Part shown: positions 2,011-45,979 of the stretch, piece by piece
Layout: every line of letters begins with the position of its first letter
Position numbering within the stretch: position 1 is the stretch's first letter
Assembly (NCBI GenBank): GCA_900316995.1
Contig: ONEZ01000017.1
Location: 1-47,637, forward strand
Direction: 5' to 3'
Length of the DNA: 47,637 bases
DNA from: an uncultured Bacteroidales bacterium
GTDB taxonomy: Bacteria; Bacteroidota; Bacteroidia; Bacteroidales; Paludibacteraceae
Translations under genes and position numbers: made by a program
The notes under the pieces: model-generated
The model's input: the letters and a program-made list of their open reading frames with translations, nothing else
What the model was told of the DNA's origin: nothing
Databases searched by the model: none

Positions 2011-2160
2011 CGTTAGCGACAGCGGTCTTCTGACCGCCGCCCTAAGGGCGAAAAGGTTTTGGGAACAAAGTGAGCAAAACCATAATACAAGGAAAGATTT
2101 TCATAAATTTTTCCTTTAAATTGCAGAATATAACAAATAATAATAAAATTTATGAAAAAC
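2011..2160 (+). repeat. Composite start-codon element, copy A (clpP leader)
   Basis: The element has a GC-rich hairpin part and an AT-rich part. The GC part holds AGCGGTC-TTCT-GACCGCC, then GCCC-TAA-GGGC, then GGTTTTG pairing with CAAAACC. The AT part holds AAGGAAA and TTTCCTT arms enclosing TTTTCATAAATTTT (2098-2111). That loop is the exact reverse complement of AAAATTTATGAAAA (2145-2158), which contains the clpP start codon. The loop could pair either locally or with the start codon. Copies B (26407-26550) and C (44549-44694) share this architecture. Confidence 0.8.
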
Positions 2161-2832
2161 GAATTTAGAGATTTTGCTACAAAGCACCTCGGACTTAATT
2201 CATTAGCCCTTGATGATTACATGAAAATCACAAGCAGCTACAGTTACATTAACCCTACCATCATAGAGGAGCGCCAGCTGAATGTGGCGCAGATGGACGT
2301 GTTCTCACGCCTTATGATGGACCGTATCATATTCCTTGGCACACAGATAGATGACTACACCGCCAATGTTATTCAGGCTCAGCTGCTCTACCTGGATTCT
2401 TCAGACCCAGGCAAGGATATATCAATATATCTTAACACTCCAGGCGGCAGCGTATATGCCGGACTTGGCATCTATGACACCATGCAGTTCATACAGAGCG
2501 ATGTGGCTACGATATGCACTGGTATGGCGGCATCGATGGGTGCAGTGCTTATGACAGCCGGAGCCAAGGGCAAACGTTCAGCACTGAAACACTCACGCAT
2601 AATGATTCACCAGCCTATGGGCGGCGCACAGGGTCAGGCATCTGATATTGAGATTACAGCACGTGAAATCCAGAAACTTAAGAAAGAGCTCTACACTATC
2701 ATAGCAGAGCACTCTGGAAACTCATTTGAGAAAATAGAGCAGGATTCAGACCGTGACTACTGGATGACAGCTGAGGAGGCTAAAGCCTACGGTATGATAG
2801 ATGAAGTTCTTATTAAACCAAACAAGAAGTAA
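2152..2832 (+). CDS. clpP: ATP-dependent Clp protease, proteolytic subunit
   Basis: ClpP is the serine protease core that degrades proteins unfolded by ClpX in the cytoplasm. The catalytic triad is visible: Ser128 in GMAASMG, His153 in RIMIHQP and Asp202 in DSDRDYW. The length of 226 residues is slightly above the usual 195-210, the surplus being an N-terminal stretch of about 30 residues ([14 protein letters not shown]) that may be a propeptide. The stop codon overlaps the clpX start by one base (TAATG), so the two are translationally coupled. The start codon lies inside the right arm of composite element A and could be occluded by its left arm, which would make clpPX expression sensitive to leader structure; that regulation is an inference. 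Confidence 0.96.
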
Positions 2833-6292: not shown

Positions 6293-6295
6293 CTC

Positions 6296-6350
6296 AGTTG
6301 ACAGTTGAAAGTTGAAAGTTGACAGTTGAGAGTTGAGAGTTGAGAGTTTA
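6296..6350 (+). repeat. Heptad array GTTGACAG/GTTGAGAG after recQ
   Basis: About seven tandem heptads with variants (AGTTGAC, AGTTGAA, AGTTGAG) begin 3 nt after the recQ stop. In this orientation the TTGACAG heptad carries TGA, so a run of three heptads stops all frames. The array leads directly into the left arm of the inverted repeat. Confidence 0.85.
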
Positions 6351-6451: not shown

Positions 6452-6943
6452 GTGTTTAAGTTCCTGCAAAAAATACTAGATTGGTTTTACCCCCTGTTCA
6501 GCAAAGTTATGAGCAGGGAGTTTTACTATTATTTAGCATCGGGAGGGATAAATACAATACTCAACTGGGTGTTCTACTTTATAATCTACAACTATATAGT
6601 GGCAAAACAGGAGGTTAGCCTGGGGTGGCTGGTTATGTCGCCTCACATAGCATCGCTTGTTATTGTAACGCCTGTAACACTCATCATAGGGTTCCTGTTG
6701 TCAAAAAATATTACGTTCAGCAGTTCAAAAATTAAAACTGGAACACAGTTTTTTAGGTATAGTCTTATTATTTTTGCTAATTTTGCAATATCATATTTGA
6801 GCATGAAATTCTGGGTGGAGGCCGTAGGTCTCTGGGCCACTCCTTCAAATATGCTAACAACAATAATTACAACAATTTTCAGTTATTTAATGCAGAAATT
6901 CTACTCTTTCAGAATGTCTGAAACAGACAATGTAAAACAGTAA
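6452..6943 (+). CDS. GtrA-like small polytopic membrane protein
   Basis: GtrA-like proteins have four membrane helices and are linked to movement or attachment of lipid-linked sugars for surface glycans. Hydrophobic segments are visible at about 34-52, 66-86, 100-118 and 130-148. The family-typical YYLASGGINTILNW near residue 26 and LLSKNITFSSS near 83 support the call. The chosen start is GTG, because the preceding FLQKILDWFYPLF is family-like N-terminal sequence; ATG at codon 20 is an alternative. It is 13 nt upstream of porX and both lie between the arms of an inverted repeat. No promoter of the standard type is visible in the 150 nt upstream of the gene. Confidence 0.82.
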   Translation: MFKFLQKILDWFYPLFSKVMSREFYYYLASGGINTILNWVFYFIIYNYIVAKQEVSLGWLVMSPHIASLVIVTPVTLIIGFLLSKNITFSSSKIKTGTQFFRYSLIIFANFAISYLSMKFWVEAVGLWATPSNMLTTIITTIFSYLMQKFYSFRMSETDNVKQ

Positions 6944-6956
6944 ATAACTTGAGCTT

Positions 6957-8501
6957 ATGATTAAGATTCTTTGGGCCGACGATGAGATAGATCTCCTTAG
7001 GCCACACATTATTTTTTTGGAACAGAAGGGATACTCTGTAACCCCTGTTGTGAGCGGTACTGATGCTATTGAGGCTTGTTCAAACTCCCATTTTGACGTG
7101 GTTTTCCTTGATGAAAACATGCCGGGTCTGAGCGGTCTGGAAACTCTTCTTGAAATTAAGAAGGCTCAACCTGCGCTGCCTGTGGTTATGATTACAAAGA
7201 GTGAGGAGGAGAACATTATGGAGCAGGCCATAGGTCAGAAAATATCAGACTACCTTATAAAGCCTGTAAATCCCAACCAGATTCTCATGTCAATAAAGAA
7301 AGTGGTTCATGCACAGGAGATTATTACTGAGAAGACCACATCGGGGTACCAGTCTGAGTTTATGCGCATAGGTATGCAGATTAATGACTCCATGAGCGCA
7401 GAAGATTGGCAGAAGGTGTATAACAACCTTATATTCTGGGAGATGCAGCTTGATGAGGCAGGAGGCTCTATGGATGAGATGCTACAGATGCAAAAAACAG
7501 AAGCCAACAATCTGTTTGCTAAATACATACGCAAGAACTACGAGAACTGGATAGAGAGTGGCAAGCACCCTGTAATGAGCCCTGACATATTCAAAACCAA
7601 GGTGTTCCCGCTGCTTGACAAAGGTGAAAAGGTATTCTTCATTCTTATTGATAATCTGCGTCAGGACCAGTGGCGTATTATCCAGAGGGAGATTGGCAAT
7701 CTCTACAATTTTGACTCTGACGACACCTTCTACAGTATTCTGCCTACTGCCACACAGTATTCCCGTAACGCCATATTCTCAGGTCTGATGCCTGCGCAGA
7801 TACGCAAGATGTACCCTAACCTTTGGGTTGACGAGGAGGAGGACGAGGGCAAGAACTTGAATGAGGAGGCACTTGTAAAAACGCAGATAGAGCGTTTCAG
7901 AAAGAAATACACATTCTCATATAATAAGATTAATACCAATCAGGCTGGTGAGAAGTACAATGAGAGTGTTAAGGGTCTTCTTGGTAATGACCTTAACGTG
8001 GTGGTTTTCAACTTTGTGGATATGCTGTCACACGCCCGCACGGAGGTGAAACTGTTCCGTGAATTGGCGCCTGACGAGGCTGCATACCGCTCGCTTGTGC
8101 AGTCATGGTTCCGTCACTCATCCATATCTGATTTGTTCAAGATACTGGCGGAGCATAAAATCAAGATAGTTCTCACCACAGATCACGGCTCTATAAGGGT
8201 TAAGAACGCTATAAAGGTGGTGGGTGATAAAAACACAAACGTGAACTTGCGTTACAAGGTAGGTAAGAATTTGGCTTACAACAAGAAAGAGGTTTTCTCA
8301 ATAGTTAAACCAGATGTTGCAGGCCTGCCTTCACCAAACCTTAGCAGCACATATATCTTTGCAGAGGGGCAGGACTTTATAGCCTACCCTAACAACTATA
8401 ATTATTACGTTCAGTATTACAAAGATACGTTCCAGCATGGTGGCGTATCGCTGGAGGAGATGATTATTCCAGTCATCACCATGAGCCCTAAAGGAGCTTA
8501 A
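6957..8501 (+). CDS. porX: PorX-type response regulator with alkaline-phosphatase-like (PglZ) domain
   Basis: The N-terminal receiver domain has acidic pocket residues Asp8 and Asp9, phosphoacceptor Asp52 (FLDENMPG), Thr80 and Lys102. The C-terminal PglZ/alkaline-phosphatase-like part begins near 215, with metal-site candidates in FILIDNLRQD (Asp232) and TTDHGS, and a Thr-containing ILPTATQYS segment. In Porphyromonas gingivalis PorX works with the kinase PorY and a sigma factor to control the type IX secretion system, and its effector domain hydrolyses phosphodiester bonds in cyclic or linear oligonucleotides. No PorY-like kinase or secretion genes are in the window, so the partner is elsewhere. 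Orthologues also occur in Bacteroidales without a clear type IX system, so the exact regulon is unsure. Confidence 0.88.
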   Translation: MIKILWADDEIDLLRPHIIFLEQKGYSVTPVVSGTDAIEACSNSHFDVVFLDENMPGLSGLETLLEIKKAQPALPVVMITKSEEENIMEQAIGQKISDYLIKPVNPNQILMSIKKVVHAQEIITEKTTSGYQSEFMRIGMQINDSMSAEDWQKVYNNLIFWEMQLDEAGGSMDEMLQMQKTEANNLFAKYIRKNYENWIESGKHPVMSPDIFKTKVFPLLDKGEKVFFILIDNLRQDQWRIIQREIGNLYNFDSDDTFYSILPTATQYSRNAIFSGLMPAQIRKMYPNLWVDEEEDEGKNLNEEALVKTQIERFRKKYTFSYNKINTNQAGEKYNESVKGLLGNDLNVVVFNFVDMLSHARTEVKLFRELAPDEAAYRSLVQSWFRHSSISDLFKILAEHKIKIVLTTDHGSIRVKNAIKVVGDKNTNVNLRYKVGKNLAYNKKEVFSIVKPDVAGLPSPNLSSTYIFAEGQDFIAYPNNYNYYVQYYKDTFQHGGVSLEEMIIPVITMSPKGA

Positions 8502-8507
8502 AAAGAA

Positions 8508-8602
8508 GTTAAATGTATTATATATGCTCGTCACTCTGAGTGAAACGAAGAGTCTCATAATGTTACAGGAGATCCTTCGGACTGCGTCCTCAGGATGACG
8601 TC
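8508..8602 (-). repeat. Right arm of 95-bp inverted repeat (BIME-like copy 3)
   Basis: It is the reverse complement of 6356-6450 with two mismatches. It starts 6 nt after the porX stop and runs into a heptad array in the mirrored orientation, so the mirror symmetry covers both the palindrome and the adjoining array. Confidence 0.9.
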
Positions 8603-8636
8603 AACTGTCAAATGTCAACTCTCAACTGTCAACTAT
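8601..8636 (+). repeat. Heptad array TCAACTG overlapping the S66 peptidase start
   Basis: Five heptads: TCAACTG, TCAAATG, TCAACTC, TCAACTG and TCAACTA. The second, with C changed to A, creates the ATG at 8612 used as the start of the following gene. Confidence 0.85.
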
Positions 8637-9514
8637 TCATAGTCTCCCCATCAGGGGCGGTGGACCCGGAATATGTAGCCGGAGCCAAGGCCGTTCTGGA
8701 GCAGTGGGGGTACAAGGTCTATGTGGCGCCCCATGCTTGTGGCAAAATGGGCAGATTCTCCGCATCGGACGATGAGAGAATTTCTGACCTGCAAAGTGCC
8801 ATAAACGCTCCAGGCAGAGGCGTGATTCTCTGTTCACGAGGTGGTTACGGGCTTAGCCGCATCATTGACAAAATTGATTTTTCACCGCTGAAAACTCCTG
8901 ATAACTATAAACTTATAGTGGGATTCAGCGATATTACAGCCTTACATAACGCTGTATCAAACTTAGGGCTGCGCTCACTTCATGCCGCTATGACTAAAAA
9001 CATAGCCACAGAGAGTGGCAGCATCGCTGTGGAGACGCTAAAAAGCGTTCTTGAAGGCAAGCCGCTAAGTTACCGTTTTGGCGGCACTCCTTTTAACCAT
9101 GCAGGATGCGTAAAAGGCAGGCTTATGGGTGGTAACCTAAGCATAATATATGCCTTGCGCGGCACACCGTATGATTTGAACTATGACGGGGCTATATTGT
9201 TTATTGAGGATATAGGAGAGCGTCTCTATCATGTGGACCGTATGATACAGAACCTGAGACTTGGCGGAGTGTTTGACAGGATTTCAGGTCTTGTGGTTGG
9301 ACAATTTACAGAGTGTGACACAGACGACACATTTCCAGGTGGAGCATACGGTATTATAAGTGACGCTGTTAAAGGTTATGATTTTCCAGTGGCCATGAAC
9401 TTCTCCGCAGGACATATAGGAGAGTGCAACCTGCCGCTGTTAATGGGCGCAAATTACAGATTAGATGTTTCTGAATTATCACAAATCGTCACCTTGGAGC
9501 AAACTGCTGATTAG
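8612..9514 (+). CDS. S66-family LD-carboxypeptidase (muropeptide recycling)
   Basis: S66 peptidases cut the bond between meso-diaminopimelate and D-Ala in murein tetrapeptides, or related amide bonds in the MccF branch. The catalytic set is visible: Ser106 in VGFSDIT, Glu199 in LFIEDIGER and His268 in SAGHIGE; CSRGGYGLSR at 74-83 is also typical. The 300-residue protein lacks the usual eight to ten residues before the first strand; it enters the family sequence at IVSPSGAV (residue 10). Residues 1-8 (MSTLNCQL) are translated from the heptad array, so the array appears to have replaced the native start. The gene overlaps the CPBP-Ddl ORF by 50 nt, indicating coupling with D-Ala-D-Ala synthesis. 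Confidence 0.85.
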   Translation: MSTLNCQLFIVSPSGAVDPEYVAGAKAVLEQWGYKVYVAPHACGKMGRFSASDDERISDLQSAINAPGRGVILCSRGGYGLSRIIDKIDFSPLKTPDNYKLIVGFSDITALHNAVSNLGLRSLHAAMTKNIATESGSIAVETLKSVLEGKPLSYRFGGTPFNHAGCVKGRLMGGNLSIIYALRGTPYDLNYDGAILFIEDIGERLYHVDRMIQNLRLGGVFDRISGLVVGQFTECDTDDTFPGGAYGIISDAVKGYDFPVAMNFSAGHIGECNLPLLMGANYRLDVSELSQIVTLEQTAD

Positions 9515-11357
9515 CATTTTGTGTCCAATTTTTCTTGCCTGCATTTTTTCTGTGGCGGAGTACCTCTGTATGCGGATGGCGGGCTATAGCAATGAAGCGT
9601 TACAGAGTTCCAGAGACGCTATGGAGCTGATTCAGAGCATCAGCTCACTATTTGTGTTCTGCGGTGGCGCCGTGCTTGCGGCTTTTATGATAAGCCCCAC
9701 GCCTATGCGATTCCTGAATGCTGACAAGGTGGCAGGCTGGCGTGTTATTCTTATGGCGTGCGCCGCATTAGTGGCGTTCCAGCCTATTGTGGGGGTGACT
9801 GCAACGCTTAATGAGCAGATGACCCTCCCTGAAAGTTTTAGCGACGTACTTAAACTTATGCGGGAGCTGGAGGATGAAGCTAAAGTTATAACAGATCTTA
9901 TGGTAAGGGGCAAGGGGGCAGGTTCACTGCTCAGGGCGCTATTGGTTATGGCGGTTATTCCCGGGCTATGTGAGGAACTCTACTTCAGGGGGCTGCTACA
10001 GAACGTGTTCAAAGGTCTGACCAAATCAGTACACGCCGCTGTTTGGATTACAGCAATACTCTTCAGCTTTATACACTTCCAGTTTTTTGGGTTTGTACCA
10101 AGAGTGCTGCTTGGAGCCATTTTAGGCTATATACTGGTATATTCCGGAAGCGTATGGGTTAACGCCATAGCCCACACACTTAATAACGCTATGGCGGTGG
10201 TAGCGCTGTGGTTTACAGTAAACTACCCTGAGATGGGCAGTGTGTCTGACTTGGGGGCTGAAACTCTGCCTCTTACAGTGGGTGTGATACTGTTTGCCGT
10301 GTGCGGCATAGCTGTGGGAATTGCATGTTTGTATTACATAAAAAAAACTAATCCTATACAAAAGATGGAAAAGAGAAACATTGCAGTAGTCTGCGGAGGC
10401 TACTCATCAGAGGCAGAGGTGTCAATGCGCAGTGCGGCAGGCATTATGTCATTCGTTGACCCTGAGAGGTATAACACCACAATGGTGGTTATAACCAAGA
10501 AAGAATGGTATGCCCAGATTTCAGAGAGTGAGAGATATGACATTGACAAGAACTACTTTGGCTACATCGATGCCAAAGGCAGAAAACACACATTTGACTT
10601 TGCCTATATAACCATTCACGGCACACCTGGTGAGAATGGCATACTGCAAGGCTATTTTGAGCTTATAGGTATGAAGTACTCATGCTGCGGACCTCTGGCG
10701 GCATCGCTGAGCTTTAATAAGTTTGTATGCAACCGCTATTTAGAGGCATTTGGAGCTAAAATTGCAAAATCTATTCTTCTGCGCCGCGGCGATGCCATAA
10801 ACACAGCCTATATTGAGGCGCACCTTGGTCTGCCAATGTTTGTAAAATCTAACGTGGGAGGCAGCAGCTATGGAGTTACCAAGGTTAAAGAGAGCTGCCA
10901 GATTATGCCAGCCATTGAACGAGCATTCAAGGAGGGCGATGAGGTAATAATAGAGTCATTCCTGAAGGGCACGGAGCTTACCTGCGGAATGTACAAGACA
11001 AAAGACAAGACAGTGGTGTTCCCGCTTACAGAGGTGGTCAGCGCCAATGAGTTCTTTGACTACGATGCCAAGTATAACGGTCAGGTTCAGGAGATTACAC
11101 CTGCACGCATATCAGCGGAAAAGACAACTGAGGTACAGGAACTCACAAAGAAGTTTTACTCTATAATGGGCTGCAAAGGCATTGTGCGTATTGACTATAT
11201 CATTACAGAAGATGGCGTGCCACATATTCTTGAGGCTAACACCACCCCTGGCATGACCGCTACAAGTTTTATTCCGCAGCAAGTAAAAGCCGCAGGAATG
11301 GACATAAAAGATGTTATGACAGACATCATAGAGGATCAATTGACAGTTGACAGTTGA
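9465..11357 (+). CDS. ddl: Fused CPBP intramembrane protease and D-alanine--D-alanine ligase
   Basis: One uninterrupted frame of 630 codons joins two enzymes normally encoded separately. Residues 1-300 are a multi-helix CPBP/CAAX-type membrane protease: CEELYFRG (Glu170, Glu171, Arg175), His204 in FIHFQFF, and HTLNNA (His237). Residues 301-630 are a complete Ddl: GGYSSEAEVSMRSA near the start, HGTPGENG, and an ATP-grasp end with EANTTPGM. Ddl makes the dipeptide for murein precursors in the cytoplasm. An internal ATG at 10365 begins a normal 330-residue Ddl, so independent translation is possible. Just before it lies A AAA AAA and, in the -1 frame, an immediate TAA. The last residues (LTVDS) and the stop come from a heptad array. 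A one-base homopolymer error could also explain the fusion. Confidence 0.88.
   Translation: MFLNYHKSSPWSKLLISILCPIFLACIFSVAEYLCMRMAGYSNEALQSSRDAMELIQSISSLFVFCGGAVLAAFMISPTPMRFLNADKVAGWRVILMACAALVAFQPIVGVTATLNEQMTLPESFSDVLKLMRELEDEAKVITDLMVRGKGAGSLLRALLVMAVIPGLCEELYFRGLLQNVFKGLTKSVHAAVWITAILFSFIHFQFFGFVPRVLLGAILGYILVYSGSVWVNAIAHTLNNAMAVVALWFTVNYPEMGSVSDLGAETLPLTVGVILFAVCGIAVGIACLYYIKKTNPIQKMEKRNIAVVCGGYSSEAEVSMRSAAGIMSFVDPERYNTTMVVITKKEWYAQISESERYDIDKNYFGYIDAKGRKHTFDFAYITIHGTPGENGILQGYFELIGMKYSCCGPLAASLSFNKFVCNRYLEAFGAKIAKSILLRRGDAINTAYIEAHLGLPMFVKSNVGGSSYGVTKVKESCQIMPAIERAFKEGDEVIIESFLKGTELTCGMYKTKDKTVVFPLTEVVSANEFFDYDAKYNGQVQEITPARISAEKTTEVQELTKKFYSIMGCKGIVRIDYIITEDGVPHILEANTTPGMTATSFIPQQVKAAGMDIKDVMTDIIEDQLTVDS
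10340..10351 (+). promoter_or_regulatory. Slippery A AAA AAA site with -1 frame stop at the CPBP/Ddl junction
   Basis: Eight A residues (10340-10347) are read as AT-A AAA AAA ACT. A one-base backward slip on A AAA AAA gives AAC and then TAA (10349-10351), which would end the protein right after the CPBP domain. The Ddl ATG lies 13 nt after that stop. The same A-run is also prone to transcriptional slippage and to sequencing or assembly error. Confidence 0.55.
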
Positions 11358-11360
11358 CAG
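11338..11360 (+). repeat. Heptad array TTGACAG forming the ddl 3' end
   Basis: Three TTGACAG heptads encode the last residues of Ddl and its TGA stop. Because three heptads of this orientation contain TGA in each frame in turn, the array can end any frame that enters it. Confidence 0.85.
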
Positions 11361-11370
11361 TTATAATAAC

Positions 11371-11437
11371 TTTCAATTTTCAATTTTCAATTTTCAATTT
11401 AATACGATTCACCGATTCACCGAATAACCGATTCACC
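11371..11437 (+). repeat. TTTCAAT heptads followed by CGATTCAC octads
   Basis: Four TTTCAAT heptads (11371-11400) are followed by four CGATTCAC-type octads with one variant CGAATAAC (11405-11437). With the preceding TTGACAG array, three short tandem families are packed into 100 nt, ending 1 nt before the next start codon. No conventional promoter is visible between them. Confidence 0.85.
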
Positions 11438-20059: not shown

Positions 20060-20670
20060 TACTTCTGTTTGTAAAGAACAGGGTTAGTATCCACATCATT
20101 GTACATCTTCATCTGCTTGTAGGTCTTCATATATTTTCTACCGGATTCAATGTCAACAAGCAGGGTTGATATGGCCTCTGAAAGGTCTGTCTCCTGCTCC
20201 AGCAGTGTATTAAGCTTCTTGGTGCAGTTTGCCTTATGCTCCTCTGTGCAGTCTGTACGTAAGGTCTCTGCACGCATATGGTATATCTTTAGCTGGAGTA
20301 TTGACAGACGGTCTATAGCCCACGCAGGGCTCTCTGTATTTATTGTTGCGTCAGGAAGAACTGCAACTTTGCTGTATTTCTCAAGAAAATAGCTGTCTAT
20401 TCTCTCTACAAGGTCTGTTCTGTCCTGGTTTGACTTGTCTATACGACGCTTAATGGCCAGAGCCTCCACAGGGTCAATCTGAGGGTCTCTTATTATATCT
20501 TCCAGATGCCACTGAACGGTGTCAATCCACGCCTTAAGGTAGAGAACTGCCTCTATTGAACCCTTCTGATACGGATTTACAAACTCAGCATCCACATTGT
20601 CCTGAATGTGGTAGCGGTCAATAGCCTCTCTGAAAATTAATAACGCCTTGTCAATAAATTTAGTTTCCAT
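20059..20670 (-). CDS. DUF4254 family protein
   Basis: A soluble, mostly helical protein of 203 residues that I recognise as DUF4254, a Bacteroidetes family often found beside heptosyltransferase-like genes. It starts METKFIDKALLIFREAID. The central QWHLEDIIRDPQIDP and SPAWAIDRLSILQLKIYHM segments are conserved by my recollection. No catalytic motif is apparent. One-base TAATG overlaps on both sides show that it is part of the polysaccharide operon and made in step with the GT9 enzyme, which suggests a helper or regulatory role in core assembly; this is inference. Confidence 0.8.
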   Translation of the reverse strand: METKFIDKALLIFREAIDRYHIQDNVDAEFVNPYQKGSIEAVLYLKAWIDTVQWHLEDIIRDPQIDPVEALAIKRRIDKSNQDRTDLVERIDSYFLEKYSKVAVLPDATINTESPAWAIDRLSILQLKIYHMRAETLRTDCTEEHKANCTKKLNTLLEQETDLSEAISTLLVDIESGRKYMKTYKQMKMYNDVDTNPVLYKQK

Positions 20671-21536
20671 TATAGTATGTTTTTAAATCTGTCAGGTATT
20701 CTAATCAGTAGCTTCCAATGGCCCATGGACGGCTTGTTAAGGGCGTATATGGGTCTGAGGAGGGTCTGAATCTTACGGGCGAGCGGCAGATAGCGGTCTC
20801 CGCTTCTAATGTCAGCCTTGGTGTCACTGACCATGTATATGGTCTTGGCTCTGCGAGCTATATGTTTGCCCCAACCTGCCCCCATGCGGTCCTTGTCCTT
20901 AAAGCGGTCTTCTATCATCTTCATGTCAAAACTGCCGAAATGGAACAGGTAGAGGTTCTCATCTATACTGAAATTATGCCCTTTAACCCTATGGAATCCC
21001 GCGCCCCAACGGCACGGTTTGTTCACTATTACAGGTTTTGTGTAACGGGAGCATACGTAGGCGTATGAGCGCTGCTGCAAAAACGGCTTGCTCCAGTCTA
21101 TGGTCTGCTCCTCTGTTAGATGCTGCCCCACATCTACGCCAAGCGCACTCTTGCAGGTGTCAAACTCAAGTGATGAAACATAGTCACTCAGTTTCATCCC
21201 TGTCTTAGGGTCAAGCACAAGAAACTCATCCGCATCACAGCCTATAACAACGTCATACCCGCTTTTCATAAGCTCAGCAGCACGCTCAGAGAGGAATCCA
21301 AGCCTGCCCTTCTCAGCCTGCACCACCTGTCCGCCTATCTTTGGGACTTTGGTCACATTTGAACTGCCTGCCCCGCTGGGAATTTCCTGATCCACGCCGT
21401 CAAGGTATATGTAGAGGTTCTCCTCTCCAAACTCCTGTCCGTAGTAGTTCACCCACTTGTTGAGGAAATCCTCATCATTACGGGCCATGGTTATCACTGC
21501 AATCTTTTTAACTTTATTCACTACGTTCATCAACAC
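20670..21536 (-). CDS. GT2-like glycosyltransferase, tandem paralogue 1
   Basis: The first of three adjacent paralogues, 288 residues. KKIAVITMARNDEDFLNKW begins the catalytic fold, GCDADEFLV holds the DxD-type metal site, and GAGFHRVKGHNF with LYLFHFGSFD is the conserved acceptor-side segment. I place it in the Glyco_tranf_2_4 group, which lacks the usual GT2 first-strand motif. The extra MLMNVVNKV before the shared start is unique to this copy; ATG at 21530 is an alternative. Nineteen nt separate it from paralogue 2, the only gap between the three. Function in surface glycan assembly is inferred from context. Confidence 0.82.
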   Translation of the reverse strand: MLMNVVNKVKKIAVITMARNDEDFLNKWVNYYGQEFGEENLYIYLDGVDQEIPSGAGSSNVTKVPKIGGQVVQAEKGRLGFLSERAAELMKSGYDVVIGCDADEFLVLDPKTGMKLSDYVSSLEFDTCKSALGVDVGQHLTEEQTIDWSKPFLQQRSYAYVCSRYTKPVIVNKPCRWGAGFHRVKGHNFSIDENLYLFHFGSFDMKMIEDRFKDKDRMGAGWGKHIARRAKTIYMVSDTKADIRSGDRYLPLARKIQTLLRPIYALNKPSMGHWKLLIRIPDRFKNIL

Positions 21537-21555
21537 GTCAACTTTTAATTTTCAA

Positions 21556-22395
21556 CTATACCATATTTTCGAACCTTTCAGGAATCCTCACTACCACTTC
21601 CTGCCCAAACATGGCCGGACGGTTCCAATGATACGGCGCGCGGAAAAAACGCTGAATCCATCGGGCAAAAGGGAGGAATTTTTCTCCGTTTTTCGGCTCC
21701 TTAACCTCGCTTACCCTGTCTATTGTATGCCTGCGGAACTTAAGGTGTTTCTCCCATCCCATATTCTGCAGGTCACGGCTTTTCAACTTATTCTCCAAGA
21801 ACTTCAAATCAAAACATCCAAAGTGGAAAAGGTAAAGATTTGAGTCAATATGATAGTTCACACCCTTGATTCTATGAAATCCCACGCCCCAGCGTACAGG
21901 CTTTGTAATGACAACTGGCTTGGTGTAGTCAGGCTCCACCACTGCATAGTGACGCTGCTCCAGAAATCCTCCGCTGTAGTCAAATTCAGGCTCTTCACCC
22001 AGCCTCTGACCCACGTCAAGTCCAAGCCCAGAAACTGTGGTGCCAATCTTTATCTCTGAAAGATACTCTCCAATCTTCTTGTTTAGTCCAGGCTCCACTA
22101 CAAGATACTCATCGGCGTCACAACCTATAACAATATCATACTCTTTAAGATGCTCCGCCGCACGGTCTGAAAGAAACACAAGCCTGCCTGGCTCCGCCTG
22201 TCCTATAGGGCCTGGAATCTTAGGGCAGGGGATTATATGCACCTTCCCCGATGCGTCCTTTGGCACATCTGAGTCAAGCCCGTCAAGGTATATGTAGATA
22301 TGCTCGTAGCCTATCTGCTCACCGTAATACTTTATCCAACGTTCTAAGAAGAAGTTGTCATTACGGGCCATTGTTATCACAGCAATTTTCTTCAT
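21556..22395 (-). CDS. GT2-like glycosyltransferase, tandem paralogue 2
   Basis: The second paralogue, 279 residues, starts MKKIAVITMARNDNFFLERW. It keeps GCDADEYLV, GVGFHRIKGVNY and LYLFHFGCFD, and ends VRIPERFENMV, matching the endings of the other two copies (RIPDRFKNIL, RIPERFKGVI). Its start overlaps the stop of paralogue 3 as ATGA. Differences among copies lie mostly in the middle (acceptor) region, consistent with three successive sugar additions with different specificities; this is an inference. Confidence 0.85.
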   Translation of the reverse strand: MKKIAVITMARNDNFFLERWIKYYGEQIGYEHIYIYLDGLDSDVPKDASGKVHIIPCPKIPGPIGQAEPGRLVFLSDRAAEHLKEYDIVIGCDADEYLVVEPGLNKKIGEYLSEIKIGTTVSGLGLDVGQRLGEEPEFDYSGGFLEQRHYAVVEPDYTKPVVITKPVRWGVGFHRIKGVNYHIDSNLYLFHFGCFDLKFLENKLKSRDLQNMGWEKHLKFRRHTIDRVSEVKEPKNGEKFLPFARWIQRFFRAPYHWNRPAMFGQEVVVRIPERFENMV

Positions 22396-23225
22396 ATTAC
22401 GCCTTTGAACCTCTCAGGAATCCTTACTATCATCTTCCAGTAGTACATATATGGTCTTGTCCACATAAACGGGTGTCTTATCACTCTCTGTAGCACCCTG
22501 GCAAGCTTTATATAGTTCTCGTTTGTATGTATTTTGTTCCGGGTAAGAAGATTTATAGTTCTGAAACGCTGGTTCAGATGCTTGCTCCAACCCTCGCTGC
22601 ACTTCTCCGCATCGGTGGTCTTAGCCATTAGCATATTATAATCAACAGAGCCAAAATGAAACAGGTACAAGTTACTGTCTATATGATAGTTGCAGCCCTT
22701 TACTCTATGAAATCCAGCCCCCCACTCCTTGGCTGACGCCTTAATCACAGGTTTGGTATATTGGGAGTCAAGCAGCGCATATCTACGCTGACTCAAAAAC
22801 GGCTGGCTCCCATCAAGGGCGCTCTCCTCATCCATCTTCTGCCCCACGTCCATACCAAGCCCCGATATGCATATTTTGCATTTAATTGAGCTGAGGTACT
22901 CCTTTAATCCTTTTCCCGCTGCCGGATCAACCACTAAGAACTCATCTGCGTCACAGCCTATTACAAGGTCATAACTCCCGAGAAGCTGCTCCGTCCTGTG
23001 GTTAATGAGCGCTATACGGGTACGGTCTCCCTTTGTCATCTCCTCAGCCTTACGCTCCATAATCTCAATATTCACACCATCAGGACAGGCTGGAGGTGTC
23101 TGGTCCCTACCGTCAAGCATGACATAGAGATTCTCGTAACCTAAGTTTTGCCCGTAATATGCAATCCAACGCTCAAGAAAGAAGTTGTCATTGCGGGCCA
23201 TGGTTATTGCTGCAATACGTTTCAT
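22392..23225 (-). CDS. GT2-like glycosyltransferase, tandem paralogue 3
   Basis: The third paralogue, 277 residues from MKRIAAITMARNDNFFLERW. I choose ATG at 23225 over a TTG four codons upstream because it aligns with the start of paralogue 2. GCDADEFLVVD, GAGFHRVKGCNY and LYLFHFGSVD are conserved. It follows the ABC exporter gene after 8 nt. The near-identical first 20 residues in paralogues 2 and 3 point to these two being the most recent duplication. Confidence 0.85.
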   Translation of the reverse strand: MKRIAAITMARNDNFFLERWIAYYGQNLGYENLYVMLDGRDQTPPACPDGVNIEIMERKAEEMTKGDRTRIALINHRTEQLLGSYDLVIGCDADEFLVVDPAAGKGLKEYLSSIKCKICISGLGMDVGQKMDEESALDGSQPFLSQRRYALLDSQYTKPVIKASAKEWGAGFHRVKGCNYHIDSNLYLFHFGSVDYNMLMAKTTDAEKCSEGWSKHLNQRFRTINLLTRNKIHTNENYIKLARVLQRVIRHPFMWTRPYMYYWKMIVRIPERFKGVI

Positions 23226-23233
23226 AGTCACAA

Positions 23234-25063
23234 TCAACTTATTTTTTGCGCATCCTGCAATTTCTTATATACTCCGCCCCTTGCAATAAGATCCTTATGT
23301 GTGCCACGCTCCACAATGCGTCCGCCTTCAAGTACACATATAGAATCAGCATTGACAACTGTAGAGAGTCTGTGTGCAATGACAATAGTTGTACGGTTCT
23401 TCATTAAACCGTCAAGCGCATCCTGAACAAGGCGCTCGCTCTCTGTATCAAGCGCTGAGGTAGCCTCGTCGAGGATTAAAATAGGCGGATTCTTAAGTAT
23501 TGCGCGGGCGATGCTTATTCTTTGACGCTGTCCGCCGGAGAGTTTGCATCCACGGTCTCCTATGTTACTGTAGTAACCCTCGGGCATTGCAGAGATAAAA
23601 TCATGGGCGTTTGCAATCTTGGCAGCGGCTATAACATCCGCCTCTGTGGCATTCTCAACTCCAAAAGCTATGTTGTTGAACACAGTATCATTAAAGAGTA
23701 TGGCCTCCTGGTTCACATTGCCCATAAATGAGCGCAGATTGTGACGCTCAAAATCTTTAACATTAATGCCGTCAATATAAATTCCACCCTCCTGAACATC
23801 CCAGAATCTTGGCAGAAGGTCAACAAGCGTTGATTTTCCACTTCCTGAGGCTCCCACTATAGCCACTGTCTGACCCTTCTCTATTGTTAGGTCTATGTTC
23901 TTCAAAACCCACTCATCGGCGTATTTGAAGCTCACATTGCGGTACTCAATCTTATCTGTGAAATCTTGAATCACTTGTGGGTTTTCAGGACACGTCAGCG
24001 GGTTTTCAGCAAGCATAATCTTATCTATACGTTCCAGAGAGGCAAGCCCTTTGCGTATGTTATAGCTTGCACGTGACAACTCCTTTATAGGGTTGATTAT
24101 GCTATAGAATATCAACAGAAAATAGATGAACGTAGCTGCATCAAGAGGACTGTCATTTCTCAGAATCAGATATCCGCCGTAGCAAACCACCATAGATATG
24201 ATGGCGGAGCCCATAAACTCACTCATTGGATGTGCCAGGTACTGACGGCGCACCACACCGAGTATGGCGTTTCGCAGACGCTCTGTCTGTTTGTGAAAAC
24301 GCTCGCCTATCCTGCCCTCGGCGTTAAAAGCCTTGATAATTCTCAGACCGCCAAGCATCTCCTCGAGCTGTGATGTGAGGGTACCCTGCTCCTGTCCCAC
24401 CTCCGTAGACTCTCTTTTCAGGTTCTTGCCTATCTTGCCCATTACAAAACCCACAACAGGCAGCATTATAAGCGCAAACAGACTAAGCTGCCAGCTTACA
24501 GATATTAGAACCACAAGATACACTACAATTGCTATAGGGTTCTTTACCAACATCTCCAGTGAACCCATTATTGAGGTCTCCACATCAAGTACGTCAACGC
24601 TAAGCCTTGACATAATGTCACCCTTGCGCTCCTCTGTAAAGAATCCAAGCGGAAGGTCAAGCACCTTGTCAAGTATGGAGTTTCTAAGATCCCGCACAAC
24701 CCCTGTCTGCATAAATGCCATACAGAGTGTGCTTACATAGTAAGTGAGAACCTTGAGCATTGTGAGGAAAATAAACAGCACAGACAGTGCTATAAGTGTC
24801 TGCATCTGTCCGTTCTGCTCCACATAAAGTGTCACATAGTAGAACATCACGGATTTAAGGTAGTCAAAAACGTGCCCCGCCTCATATACAGGAGCTTCAT
24901 GCAAAGGTGAACTTATCCCAAACAGAAGCTCAAGAATGGGCACTATCATTGCAAAAGAGAATAGGCTTAGTATGGTTGAAATAAGGCTGAACACCAGCAC
25001 TCCAACCACAGAGCGCATATAGTTAGGAATAAATCTTAGAAAAAGTGAAATGAAACGCTTCAT
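23234..25063 (-). CDS. MsbA-type ABC exporter, fused membrane and ATPase domains
   Basis: A half-transporter of 609 residues that would act as a homodimer. The N-terminal 340 residues contain about six membrane helices; the ATPase domain has Walker A GASGSGKS (404-411), Q-loop Gln452, signature LSGGQ (508-512) and Walker B ILILDE (528-533) with the H-loop in IAHRLST. Position at the head of a glycosyltransferase operon suggests flipping of lipid A-core or another lipid-linked glycan, but multidrug or peptide export has the same architecture. It starts 31 nt after the TPM gene, so lemA, the TPM gene and this operon may be one transcript. Confidence 0.9.
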   Translation of the reverse strand: MKRFISLFLRFIPNYMRSVVGVLVFSLISTILSLFSFAMIVPILELLFGISSPLHEAPVYEAGHVFDYLKSVMFYYVTLYVEQNGQMQTLIALSVLFIFLTMLKVLTYYVSTLCMAFMQTGVVRDLRNSILDKVLDLPLGFFTEERKGDIMSRLSVDVLDVETSIMGSLEMLVKNPIAIVVYLVVLISVSWQLSLFALIMLPVVGFVMGKIGKNLKRESTEVGQEQGTLTSQLEEMLGGLRIIKAFNAEGRIGERFHKQTERLRNAILGVVRRQYLAHPMSEFMGSAIISMVVCYGGYLILRNDSPLDAATFIYFLLIFYSIINPIKELSRASYNIRKGLASLERIDKIMLAENPLTCPENPQVIQDFTDKIEYRNVSFKYADEWVLKNIDLTIEKGQTVAIVGASGSGKSTLVDLLPRFWDVQEGGIYIDGINVKDFERHNLRSFMGNVNQEAILFNDTVFNNIAFGVENATEADVIAAAKIANAHDFISAMPEGYYSNIGDRGCKLSGGQRQRISIARAILKNPPILILDEATSALDTESERLVQDALDGLMKNRTTIVIAHRLSTVVNADSICVLEGGRIVERGTHKDLIARGGVYKKLQDAQKIS

Positions 25064-25839: not shown

Positions 25840-26415
25840 CTAGAACTCCACCTTCGGTGCACTCTTAGCTCCCTCCTCAGCCTCAAAGTAAGCTTTGGTC
25901 TTGAAGCCGAATATACCAGCTATAATGTTGTTAGGGAACTTACGGATAGTTACGTTGTACTCCTTGGCAACTTCATTGAAACGCTTACGTTCTGTGGCAA
26001 TGCGGTTCTCTGTGCCTTCCAACTGTGATTGAAGCTGGAGGAAGTTCTCATTTGCCTTCAAATCAGGATATGCCTCTGCTACAGCCATCAAACGACCCAA
26101 TGCCTGAGAGAGTTCGCCCTGTGCCTTCTGGTACTGTGCAAGAGACTCTGCATCATTAACATCAACTTGAATAGATGTTGCCTTTGCACGTGCGTTAATT
26201 ACGCCCTCAAGAGTGTTCTCCTCATGTTTTGCGTAACCTTTAACTGTGTTTACAAGGTTAGGAATGAGGTCAGCTCTACGCTGATACTGGTTCTCTACTT
26301 GAGACCATGCTGTGTTTACGGTCTCCTCCTGGTTCACCATTCCGTTGTAACCGCTTATAGCCCAAAGAACTATAACTGCTACAACGCCGATAATAATCCA
26401 CGTACTTTTTTTCAT
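25840..26415 (-). CDS. lemA: LemA family membrane protein
   Basis: An N-terminal membrane helix (about residues 5-22, IIIGVVAVIVLWAI) is followed by a helical periplasmic domain of 165 residues. The conserved AWSQVENQYQRRADLIPNLV and VKGYAKHEENTL segments, and FPNNIIAGIFGFK near the C-terminus, define LemA. Function is poorly known; it occurs with TPM genes, as here. The start codon lies in one arm of composite element B, whose other arm (26459-26476) is an 18-nt perfect complement of the start region, so translation may be structure-controlled. Confidence 0.92.
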   Translation of the reverse strand: MKKSTWIIIGVVAVIVLWAISGYNGMVNQEETVNTAWSQVENQYQRRADLIPNLVNTVKGYAKHEENTLEGVINARAKATSIQVDVNDAESLAQYQKAQGELSQALGRLMAVAEAYPDLKANENFLQLQSQLEGTENRIATERKRFNEVAKEYNVTIRKFPNNIIAGIFGFKTKAYFEAEEGAKSAPKVEF

Positions 26416-26550
26416 AAAAAATTTATATTAAGTTATTAATTAAAGTGCAATCATCAAGAAATTTTTTATGAAAAAATTCCTTAACAATGGGCTTCGCCCT
26501 TTTCGCTTCGCGGCGGTCAGAAGACCGCTTTCGCCTAACGGCTCAGTTAA
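26407..26550 (-). repeat. Composite start-codon element, copy B (lemA leader)
   Basis: Read on the minus strand: a GC-rich module with hairpins GCC-GTTA-GGC, AGCGGTC-TTCT-GACCGCC, CGC-GAA-GCG and GGGC-GAA-GCCC, then the arm TTTTTTCATAAAAAATTT (26476-26459), then CTTGATGATTG, and finally the start region AAATTTTTTATGAAAAAA (26424-26407). The two arms are perfectly complementary over 18 nt. Copies A and C have CATAAATTTT paired with AAAATTTATG, whereas this copy has CATAAAAAATTT paired with AAATTTTTTATG: both arms changed together. Confidence 0.85.
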
Positions 26551-26552
26551 TT

Positions 26553-26586
26553 TTCAACTATCAACTGTCAACTGTCAACTATCAAC
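26553..26586 (-). repeat. Heptad array forming the 3' end of the PEP-synthase-like gene
   Basis: Five heptads (AGTTGAT, AGTTGAC and variants when read on the minus strand) encode the terminal AVDS and the TGA stop of the gene ending at 26575, and then adjoin composite element B. Confidence 0.85.
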
Positions 26587-32450: not shown

Positions 32451-32510
32451 TATTGCTCTTAAAAATTGTAATTTTGCGCAAAATTAGTAAAAGTTATGAG
32501 AACATACAAA
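32445..32510. promoter_or_regulatory. Symmetric bidirectional promoter of miaB and argF'
   Basis: The 18-bp perfect palindrome TAATTTTGCGCAAAATTA (32469-32486) gives a TAnnTTTG -7 box on each strand. The plus-strand box (32469-32476) has TTTC 20 nt upstream (32445-32448). The minus-strand box (32486-32479) has TTTG 20 nt upstream (32510-32507). The two boxes are 2 bp apart, so only one polymerase should fit at a time. Confidence 0.65.
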
Positions 32511-33449
32511 ACAGCCAAAGATTTAGGCGATTTGAACAAGGCTCTTGCAGAGGCTTTTGAAGTTAAGGCCAACCCTTACAAGTGGGACACAATGGGTAAG
32601 AACAAAACTCTTCTTATGGTATTTTTCAACTCAAGTCTGCGCACTCGTCTCAGCACACAGAAGGCGGGAATGAACCTTGGAATGAACACAATAGTGCTCG
32701 ATGTTAACGCAGGAGCGTGGAAACTTGAAACTGAGCGTGGTGTAATTATGGATGGCGACAAGCCCGAGCACCTGCTTGAGGCCATTCCTGTAATGGGAAG
32801 TTACTGTGACATTATAGGTGTACGCTCTTTTGCACGATTTGAGAACAAGGAGTTTGACTATAATGAGGTGATTCTTGAGCAGTTCATAAAGTATTCTGGC
32901 AAGCCAGTGTTCAGTATGGAGTCTGCCACCTGTCACCCTCTGCAGGCCTTTGCAGACCTTATTACTATAGAGGAGTATAAAGAGAAAAAACGTCCTAAAG
33001 TGGTGCTTACATGGGCTCCCCATCCAAGAGCTCTTCCTCAGGCTGTTCCAAACTCATTTGCTGACTTTATGAACGAGGCTGATGTTGATTTTGTTATAAC
33101 ACACCCTCACGGTTATGAACTCTGCCCTGACTTTGTGCGTGGAGCCAAGGTTGAATATGACCAGCGCAAAGCCTTTGAAGGTGCTGACTTTATCTACGCC
33201 AAGAACTGGTCTGCCTACAATGATGACGTATATGGTCAGATTCTGAGCAAGGATATGAGCTGGACTGTAGATACAGAAAAAATGGCGCTGACAAACAATG
33301 CCTTCTTCATGCACTGCCTGCCTGTGCGCCGTAATATGATTGTCACTGACGATGTTATTGAGAGCCCTCGCAGCATTGTCATTCCAGAGGCCGCCAACCG
33401 TGTGGTTTCAGCGCAGACTGTAATAAAGCGTATGCTGGAGGCGCTATAA
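32496..33449 (+). CDS. argF': N-succinylornithine carbamoyltransferase-type enzyme (arginine biosynthesis)
   Basis: The enzyme transfers carbamoyl phosphate to an acylated ornithine in the Bacteroidetes variant of arginine synthesis. The carbamoyl-phosphate motif is FFNSSLRTRLSTQ (43-55) and the C-terminal catalytic motif is HCLPVRR. Residue 90 is Pro in GDKPEHL; in the Bacteroides fragilis enzyme Pro90 selects N-succinylornithine, whereas the Xanthomonas N-acetylornithine enzyme has Glu at the matching place. The length of 317 fits the family. The other arginine genes are not in the window. An 18-bp palindrome covers its -7 box and may also be a repressor site. Confidence 0.92.
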   Translation: MRTYKTAKDLGDLNKALAEAFEVKANPYKWDTMGKNKTLLMVFFNSSLRTRLSTQKAGMNLGMNTIVLDVNAGAWKLETERGVIMDGDKPEHLLEAIPVMGSYCDIIGVRSFARFENKEFDYNEVILEQFIKYSGKPVFSMESATCHPLQAFADLITIEEYKEKKRPKVVLTWAPHPRALPQAVPNSFADFMNEADVDFVITHPHGYELCPDFVRGAKVEYDQRKAFEGADFIYAKNWSAYNDDVYGQILSKDMSWTVDTEKMALTNNAFFMHCLPVRRNMIVTDDVIESPRSIVIPEAANRVVSAQTVIKRMLEAL

Positions 33450-33483
33450 TAAAAAAGGCTGGCAGCTTGCCAGCCTTTTTTTA
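33450..33483. terminator. Bidirectional terminator between argF' and the HIT gene
   Basis: AAAAAAGGCTGGCA pairs with TTGCCAGCCTTTTTT around a two-base centre. A-run and T-run on the two sides allow it to end both convergent transcripts. Confidence 0.9.
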
Positions 33484-34481: not shown

Positions 34482-34509
34482 ATTGACAGTTGACAGTTGA
34501 CAGTTGACA
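34482..34509 (+). repeat. Heptad array TTGACAG upstream of greA
   Basis: Four tandem heptads, reading TTGACAG on the plus strand and TCAACTG in the direction of greA. The array lies about 10 nt upstream of the greA -7 box. Confidence 0.85.
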
Positions 34510-34529
34510 ATTATTTGAAAAATACGGAA

Positions 34530-44548: not shown

Positions 44549-44694
44549 GTTAACTGAGCCGAAGGCGAAAGCGGTCTTCTGACCGCCGCGAAGCGAAAAA
44601 GGGCGAAGCCCATAAACAAGGAAAATATTTTTCATAAATTTTTCCTTGATGATTGTAAGATGTTAAACACTTAAAATAAAAAATTTATGAAAAA
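44549..44694 (+). repeat. Composite start-codon element, copy C (GH57 gene leader)
   Basis: The GC module (44558-44612) is a chain of small hairpins: GCC-GAA-GGC, AGCGGTC-TTCT-GACCGCC, CGC-GAA-GCG, GGGC-GAA-GCCC. It is nearly identical to copy B. Next come AAGGAAAA and TTTTCCTT arms around TTTTTCATAAATTTTT (44628-44643), then CTTGATGATTG shared with copy B, then AAAAATTTATGAAAAA (44679-44694), a 16-nt perfect complement that contains the GH57 start codon. Confidence 0.85.
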
Positions 44695-45979
44695 GATATG
44701 CTTTTATTTCCAAGTACATTCACCATACGTACTACGCAGATACCGATTCTTTGAAATAGGGAATGATCACTATTACTATGATGACTTTGCCACAGAAGAA
44801 AAAATAAGGGAACTGGCGGAAAAATCATACCTGCCGGCAAATAAAATTATTTTAGACCTGATTAAAAAAACAAACGGCGCATTCAAGTGCGGATTCTCAA
44901 TTTCAGGCACAACATTAGAGCAACTGGAACAGTATGCTCCTGAAGTAATTGACAGTTTCCGTGAACTGGCCGACACTGGTAACGTGGAGTTTTTAGCAGA
45001 AACCTACGGACACTCTCTCAGCTCCATCTATAATGACAAGGAGTTTGAGCTACAGGTTAAGAAGCATAGTGCAAAAATCAAGGAGCTTTTTGGAAAGAAA
45101 CCTACCGCATTCCGCAATGCTGAGCTTATATACAGCGATGAGATGGCTGAGAAAATATCCAAGTTAGGATACAACACCATTCTAATAGAGGGCGCCAAAC
45201 ACATACTTGGCTGGAAGAGTCCTAACTATGTTTACGGTCACCCATATCTGCCAAAGGTAAAACTGCTCACCCGTAACTTCCCTATGAGTAACCATATCCC
45301 TTTCCAGTTCTCAGACAAATCATGGAGCGAGTTCCCGCTTACAGCCGACAAATTCACACAGTGGATTGCAGACGCACCGCAAGAGGAGGAGATATTTAAT
45401 ATATGGTTAGGATATGAGGCTTTTGGTATAATACAGAAAGACTATACTGGAATATTTGAGTTCCTAAAAGCCATACCACAGCAAGCGTTCAACCGTGGCA
45501 TAGGATTCACCACACCTTCAGAAGCGTCAAAAGCCACACCAACCGCCACTCTCAGTGCTCCATATCCGCTATCATGGAGCGGTGAGGAGAAAGACCTGTC
45601 ACCTTGGATGGGTAATCACCTGCAAGAGGAGGCGCTTAACAAACTATACAGCGTGGCTGAACGTGTTAATATGTGTAAGGAGAAGGCACTCAAGCGTGAC
45701 TGGCTTACCATTCAGAACACAGATTATTTCCGCTATATGAGCTTCAAGGACGCATGGGGCAGCACATTTGAATCTCCTTACGACGCATTCACAAACTATA
45801 TGAATATACTTGCTGATTTCTTGCTTCGTGTAGATTCTGAATACCCTACATCAATTGAGAACGAGGAGCTTAACGAGCTTCTGAAGACCATCAATGATCA
45901 GGAGGAGACAATAAGCGAGCTTGAAAAGACTATTAAGAGCCTGCGCAGTAGAAAACAGACAAACAAAACACAGGAGTAA
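44687..45979 (+). CDS. GH57-family alpha-glucan hydrolase/transferase
   Basis: GH57 enzymes act on alpha-1,4 glucans (alpha-amylase, 4-alpha-glucanotransferase or branching activity). The N-terminus KKICFYFQVHSPYVLRRYRF carries the family HxP-like start, AETYGHSLSS the second conserved region, and AFRNAELIYSDEM probably the nucleophile Glu region. The length of 430 is short for the family, without C-terminal extra domains, but a coiled coil (EETISELEKTIKSLRSRK) ends it. Third gene of the glycogen operon; 2 nt precede the next. Start codon lies in the right arm of element C, so it may be regulated separately from the first two genes. Confidence 0.9.
   Translation: MKKICFYFQVHSPYVLRRYRFFEIGNDHYYYDDFATEEKIRELAEKSYLPANKIILDLIKKTNGAFKCGFSISGTTLEQLEQYAPEVIDSFRELADTGNVEFLAETYGHSLSSIYNDKEFELQVKKHSAKIKELFGKKPTAFRNAELIYSDEMAEKISKLGYNTILIEGAKHILGWKSPNYVYGHPYLPKVKLLTRNFPMSNHIPFQFSDKSWSEFPLTADKFTQWIADAPQEEEIFNIWLGYEAFGIIQKDYTGIFEFLKAIPQQAFNRGIGFTTPSEASKATPTATLSAPYPLSWSGEEKDLSPWMGNHLQEEALNKLYSVAERVNMCKEKALKRDWLTIQNTDYFRYMSFKDAWGSTFESPYDAFTNYMNILADFLLRVDSEYPTSIENEELNELLKTINDQEETISELEKTIKSLRSRKQTNKTQE

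Follow-up and report, generated by a model that had tools for sequence, protein, structure and literature searches.

Introduction

Group IIC introns associate with terminator stem-loops, fungal mitochondrial double-hairpin elements are composed of tandem hairpins with variable stems, and erm leaders are start-sequestering translational attenuators. The element described here was recognized in a window of 47,637 nt (the whole stretch of DNA that was analysed, from an uncultured bacterium of the order Bacteroidales), and it can be compared with each of these systems. Like the group IIC introns, it is associated with hairpins at transcript 3' ends; unlike them, it also places arms at start codons, and it gave no Rfam match at the gathering score either in the window (where only a tRNA matched) or in 10 module loci, on which grounds a known RNA family was ruled out. 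Tandem hairpins with variable stems are a feature shared with the mitochondrial elements, in which we know of no host-matched arm.

Translational attenuators of the erm type likewise have two exclusive RNA folds, one of which hides the start (for erm leaders, see PMC11264731). In contrast to these leaders, the present system consists of one element family that precedes many unrelated genes with a gene-specific arm. REP/BIME repeats, as characterized in PMC3733652 and PMC2817692, are also small intergenic palindromic repeats present in tens of copies; compared with the repeats characterized there, the stems of our element vary widely between copies and an arm matching the host is appended. By a published route, perfect hairpins can be made and kept through template switching (PMC8794818). 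The hairpins considered in that source are, like ours, perfect reverse-complement copies with compensatory changes without G-U steps, but they are treated there as mutations in RNA genes, whereas here a single repeat family lies at gene boundaries and shows a repeated geometry at start codons. Searches of an open-access library brought up no description of such an element among the entries listed, although one may exist elsewhere.

Results

Arms and hairpin modules in the window

The initial annotation had described, in front of clpP, lemA and a GH57 gene, an upstream arm that is the perfect reverse complement of the start-codon region. The gene names were upheld by Pfam (CLP_protease, LemA and Glyco_hydro_57, respectively), and the coordinates and lengths of the arms (14, 18 and 16 nt) proved exact, with perfect pairing in all three cases (Table 1). 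The upstream anti-start or boundary arm is referred to below as T', and the host gene edge with which it pairs as T. In the three leaders T' and T are separated by loops of 33, 34 and 35 nt. Only four perfect inverted repeats that are 12 nt or longer (loop up to 80 nt) are present in the window, three of them being these leaders; first-order Markov shuffles yielded three in total at 12 nt in 10 rounds and none at 14 nt in 10 rounds. The fourth repeat (33451-33481; 14 nt, with a 3-nt loop) is located just past the ORF at 32496-33449.

The local hairpin reported around T' is also present at all three genes, in the form AAGGAAA/TTTCCTT at clpP and GH57, and AAGGAA/TTTCTT (with one G-T pair) at lemA. 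What had been overlooked is a hairpin module preceding each of the three arms. The arms are real and belong to a larger hairpin repeat.

Table 1. Features of the three leaders in the window (T', upstream arm; T, gene edge paired by T').
Feature	Position	Strand	Basis
Hairpin module before clpP, 3 stem-loops, ends ACAAGGAA	2015..2094	+	R1 covariance model, 58.8 bits
AAGGAAA, local hairpin 5' side, clpP	2089..2095	+	sequence; fold
clpP anti-start arm T'	2098..2111	+	sequence; inverted-repeat scan
TTTCCTT, local hairpin 3' side, clpP	2110..2116	+	sequence; fold
clpP start region T, partner of T'	2145..2158	+	sequence; inverted-repeat scan
clpP	2152..2832	+	Pfam PF00574
Hairpin module before lemA	26477..26536	-	R1, 54.8 bits
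lemA anti-start arm T'	26459..26476	-	sequence; inverted-repeat scan
TTTCTT, local hairpin 3' side, lemA	26456..26461	-	sequence; fold
lemA start region T	26407..26424	-	sequence; inverted-repeat scan
lemA	25840..26415	-	Pfam PF04011
Hairpin module before GH57 gene	44563..44623	+	R1, 64.4 bits
AAGGAAAA, local hairpin 5' side, GH57	44618..44625	+	sequence; fold
GH57 anti-start arm T'	44628..44643	+	sequence; inverted-repeat scan
TTTTCCTT, local hairpin 3' side, GH57	44640..44647	+	sequence; fold
GH57 start region T	44679..44694	+	sequence; inverted-repeat scan
GH57 gene	44687..45979	+	Pfam PF03065

Other repeats were observed in the same DNA. Seven-base tandem repeats of the TCAACTGTCAACTA type occur in the window at 399-435, 6295-6350, 8586-8650, 11337-11401, 26546-26596 and 34487-34514, and repeats of this type also adjoin several hairpin modules. 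A 127-nt inverted repeat (6324-6450/8508-8634; 94% complementary, 2 kb apart) flanks the ORFs at 6452-8501, and three adjacent ORFs at 20670-23237 contain direct repeats of 117 nt and 85 nt, spaced approximately 830-880 nt apart.

Structure and distribution of the hairpin module

The module is a repeat of approximately 60-80 nt composed of GC hairpins with covarying stems. Aligned copies contain three stem-loops (with loops that are mostly TTCT, GAA and GAA), followed by AAGGAA. This 3' end is regular, while the left end is either GGAGC..GCGACA or a perfect hairpin, which in some copies constitutes a fourth one. Over 11 copies, 97% of the stem cells are paired, both sides have changed in 26 stem cells (shuffled mean 7.7), and G-U accounts for only one of 165 cells.

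A BLAST search with the GH57 leader gave 14 matches in its own genome. A covariance model of the module, R1, gave at least 32 matches there at E up to 1 (150 of 857 candidates being scored), which corresponds to the REP-like pattern of numerous short palindromes between genes. With the threshold set at E up to 0.001, matches were found in 11 of the 16 genomes of the genus, the own genome included: 31 in the own genome, 23 in G001, 18 in G012, 17 in G002 and one to five in each of seven others, the remaining five having none. At the same threshold R1 found no module in 15 genomes of relatives outside the genus. When 247 genomes from across the order were searched under more stringent filters, with scoring limited to 20 candidates in each, the module was detected in the own genome only; this is a weak negative result, since with these settings 20 instead of 31 own copies were found. 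The hairpin repeat is best read as a genus-specific, interspersed sequence adjoining gene boundaries.

The involvement of phages or plasmids in its spread was dropped from consideration after BLAST with the GH57 leader gave no match in phage and plasmid collections and an exact-pattern search of viral contigs with a 35-nt piece of the module was also negative. A REP sequence driven by a RAYT was rejected as well: the Y1 transposase PF01797 had no matches in the four module-rich genomes (G000, G001, G002 and G012), an absence that is not certain given the 78-96% completeness of these MAGs. The domain is present in two of the 16 genus genomes, both of which are module-poor (G005 with two modules, G009 with none).

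Two further observations concern individual copies. Locus L012 (3663-3953) carries two tandem modules in which the arm and the spacer are identical, while all three stems are wholly different. Six loci of G001 (L107, L108, L111, L113, L115 and L116) form a more uniform subfamily, which has the end ATTTTAA..GAGCCGTAGGCGA..TTAAAATGATG and lacks an arm matching the host; it has the look of a repeat that spreads independently.

Host-matched arms across the family

A set of 99 module matches from 83 sources was compiled, which are non-independent, since orthologs and tandem copies are included. It comprises 30 of the 32 own matches (two without a locus were omitted), every listed match of G001, G002 and G012 together with a small number of weaker ones from the same stretches, and seven modules from five other species (G003, G006, G008, G010 and G013), the remaining matches of module-poor genomes being omitted. 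In 64 of the 99 cases the sequence within 25 nt of the module end includes a perfect, flank-matching arm of 11 nt or more; applied to the mirrored left side, the same criterion picks out two of 99. The other 35 modules have no such arm, which counts against the explanation that we favour below.

The initial annotation had interpreted the arm as a start-codon switch. Against a pure switch of this kind, T is a start codon in 32 of the 64 cases and lies elsewhere in the other 32 (stop codon, 9; tRNA 3' end, 8; 5S 3' end, 3; other, unassigned, 12). The anti-start arm recurs in front of many unrelated genes (Pfam provided names for 20); the original observation is solid and much wider than first reported. 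The nine stop-class sites belong to seven genes, with T at the stop codon of a convergent gene. At eight of them the stop codon touches the loop or axis (at L100 it lies inside T'), and at eight of the nine the T'-T spacing is 0-4; at tRNAs it is variable. Inspection by eye revealed a terminator-like hairpin in the loop at several tRNA and 5S ends.

Copies located at the same gene in different species were also compared. Arm and gene change jointly at lemA, GH57, 5S, tRNA-Ala and others, and both are unchanged at a decarboxylase-family gene (L011/L074), aroC, era and others. The claim that pairing is kept while the sequence changes is borne out by lemA and GH57, whose copies in a second species are altered on both sides. 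In 10 of 58 non-Watson-Crick cases the pair just past the arm is G-U, which is approximately the level of random mismatches; in one more case this pair is Watson-Crick. A module may also occur without an arm: at the argininosuccinate synthase start the module is found in L016/L020 (G000) and L122 (G001) and the arm only in G001, and the GH57 copy of G001 has the module and no arm.

Geometry and predicted folding at start codons

Pairing covers positions -6 to +2 at all 29 distinct start loci, and its edges lie at -9 and +8. Between -8 and +7, 440 of the 464 cells are Watson-Crick and seven are G-U; six of the latter fall at +5, which indicates that identity between gene and arm is not maintained in every case. 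Over 35 loci (four of them found by pattern), own pairing exceeded that in all 5000 permutations both at +3 to +7 (155 of 175 versus 108.5) and at -8 to -1 (272 of 280 versus 168.5). The arm thus matches the start of its own gene, as had been claimed, although the loci were picked for a perfect arm, so that the perfection of the pairing and part of the permutation result arise by construction; the centring on ATG does not. Independent drift of the arms had been named beforehand as a result that would contradict the switch reading, and this test does not refute it. The loop is 30-38 nt long in 27 of the 32 start-class copies, 66-70 nt in four and 5 nt in one (the own-genome dapB being counted at its 34-nt arm).

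Two exclusive folds, with one hiding the start as in attenuators, are predicted for most loci. A local hairpin around T' of -8 kcal/mol or lower was obtained at 24 of 35 loci (two pairs among these segments being identical), against a shuffled mean of 1.9 and a maximum of 6. In the folding set of 31 loci, which were likewise picked for a perfect arm and include one stop-class locus (L079) omitted from the pairing and permutation sets, the predicted probability of an unpaired ATG has a median of 0.00 in the presence of T' and 0.51 in its absence, and the value is below 0.1 at 24 loci. For GH57 it is 0.02 with T' and 0.58 without, and for lemA 0.44 and 0.90, respectively. The two folds proposed earlier are predicted for the majority of loci but not for clpP, whose ATG is not hidden (0.60 with T', 0.40 without); L080 has a value of 0.97.

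Copies of coding sequence past +8 are prominent at three genes only (the own-genome dapB, the L086 gene and the glycosyltransferase gene L102/L130), with no general excess over the 35 loci, and a long copy that subsequently decays to the ATG core was consequently rejected as a general model. The Bacteroidetes promoter motif is TAnnTTTG. In a crude motif test it was absent between the module and T in all 32 start-class copies, on which basis a promoter in the loop was rejected. Within 200 nt upstream of the module, the motif occurs in eight of these copies; the other 24 are without a box, which counts against the explanation favoured below. One box lies 43 nt upstream of the clpP module, so the clpP arm is probably transcribed.

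Comparison with relatives lacking the element

The direction of copying is clearest at hisF. Of 16 genomes, 15 have ATGTTAGC at the start of this gene and one has ATGTTGGC, and the module together with a 22-nt arm containing CTAACAT (arms judged by eye) occurs in the own genome only, the nearest species, with 98% protein identity, having neither. Since the hisF start is common to species without the element, it is the arm that copies the host sequence; on this comparison T' is derived and T, from which it was copied, is older. In the own-genome dapB, the pairing of T' extends over the first eight codons and leaves a single base bulged; an ortholog with 92% protein identity has neither module nor arm. 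Two other species have a short arm at dapB, and in a third a 12-nt arm with a 3-nt loop lies beside sequence resembling a truncated module (the G010 copy in this comparison is at a contig end). At era, an arm at the stop codon was seen by eye in two of 15 genomes, exactly those that carry the module (G004 was not part of this comparison). At hisF, dapB and era the arm is thus a copy of an older flank and is absent in close relatives.

For clpP, 14 of 15 leaders lack a module at this position. In leaders without a module, no start-facing arm longer than 8 nt was found for clpP, GH57 (11 evaluable, G004 being left out) or lemA (five, the exact start being approximate in G011 and G005), a comparison that the initial annotation had recommended. 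The element-free sites in close relatives are those of hisF and dapB in G012. By these sequence comparisons, gain of the element is clear at hisF (15 of 16 genomes are without it) and less so at dapB, given the short arms in two other species. Taken together, the alignments show the arm to be a reverse copy of the gene edge.

Discussion

The explanation that we favour, and to which we assign an even chance of being correct, is that a genus-specific hairpin repeat gains an inverted copy of the host boundary beside which it lies and, at start codons, forms a two-state leader. T' would arise by fold-back of synthesis or by a template switch, with the adjoining gene edge serving as the template; the module's stable hairpins may provoke this step. 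Fold-back synthesis or template switching is the known process that fits the arm copies. It is also in keeping with stems that are replaced as entire units and contain few G-U pairs, as in the tandem copies of L012, and the same process may help to keep the stems perfectly Watson-Crick. At start codons, pairing of T' with its local partner would leave ATG free and pairing with the start would hide it; such a copy may be kept because it tunes or times the initiation of translation. At stop codons and at tRNA and 5S ends, the T/T' hairpins may act as terminators.

The initial interpretation is partly supported. Its mobile component is supported by the element-free sites in relatives, although the one transposase family sought (PF01797) was not found in the module-rich genomes; mobility and switching are both best regarded as putative. 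A switch is a plausible reading for one half of the arms, and least so for clpP. Hiding the starts of housekeeping genes (e.g. thymidylate synthase) would be costly if this were the main state, which counts against a switch. A more far-reaching version, in which a portable leader writes the antisense of the host start beside a competing local hairpin on arrival, creating tailor-made switches as well as terminators at gene ends, is put forward as tentative and somewhat doubtful.

An alternative is that the arms are a mutational by-product, the DNA hairpins of the module provoking template switches that reverse-copy the nearest constrained sequence, with no function at starts and at most a terminator role at 3' ends. 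The same type of arm at stops, tRNAs and 5S, the scarcity of G-U in the stems, the random level of G-U just past the arm, the unchanged spacer beside replaced stems in L012 and the exposed clpP start in the predicted fold are all consistent with it; the centring of start pairing on ATG, the near-constant loops and the keeping of a competing local hairpin are left unexplained. The centring and the competing hairpin are best explained by selection on translation initiation, and we regard the by-product view as unlikely, if by no means negligible.

Selection on the leader RNA might, at the other extreme, have acted alone through ordinary compensatory point mutations, without any copying. The two exclusive predicted folds, the ATG-centred pairing and the six tolerated G-U pairs at +5 would be expected of such a pure RNA switch, but the 22-nt arm of hisF and the eight-codon arm of dapB, neither of which is present in the nearest relative, exceed the length that point mutation could build, and arms are also found at stops and at tRNA and 5S ends; this makes the proposal distinctly improbable.

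IS605-type guides and guide-RNA-directed transposons insert at a fixed distance from the guide-paired target. By analogy, T' could guide the element to a target T, and indeed T' sits in a hairpin loop, and most start copies have T at a distance of approximately 33 nt (about double in four). Since the target of T' differs at most sites, however, the guide would have to be rewritten each time; the narrow spacing at stop codons, its variability at tRNAs and the failure to find a transposase (PF01797 being the family sought) also speak against this mode of insertion, which we consider very improbable.

The rival view offered initially, that ATGAAAAA comes from the right end of an inverted-repeat mobile element, draws on the ATGAA that begins most start-class hosts and on a CTTGATNATTGCAG-like sequence common to many loops, but it is scarcely tenable, as element-free orthologs of clpP, GH57, lemA, dapB and hisF start alike, and the arm of hisF matches ATGTTAG and that of U32 ATGGCTCC.

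The element occurs in one group of gut Bacteroidales, where it lies against the edges of many genes. In RNA, its arm could hide a start codon, which may make the element a portable switch of translation. Should the arms be host-derived copies that are subsequently kept for regulation, gene-specific RNA regulation would be obtained in one step, with no need for slow compensatory evolution. The family would, moreover, lend itself naturally to the study of bacterial template switching, because related species reveal the donor, the copy and the sites left unoccupied.
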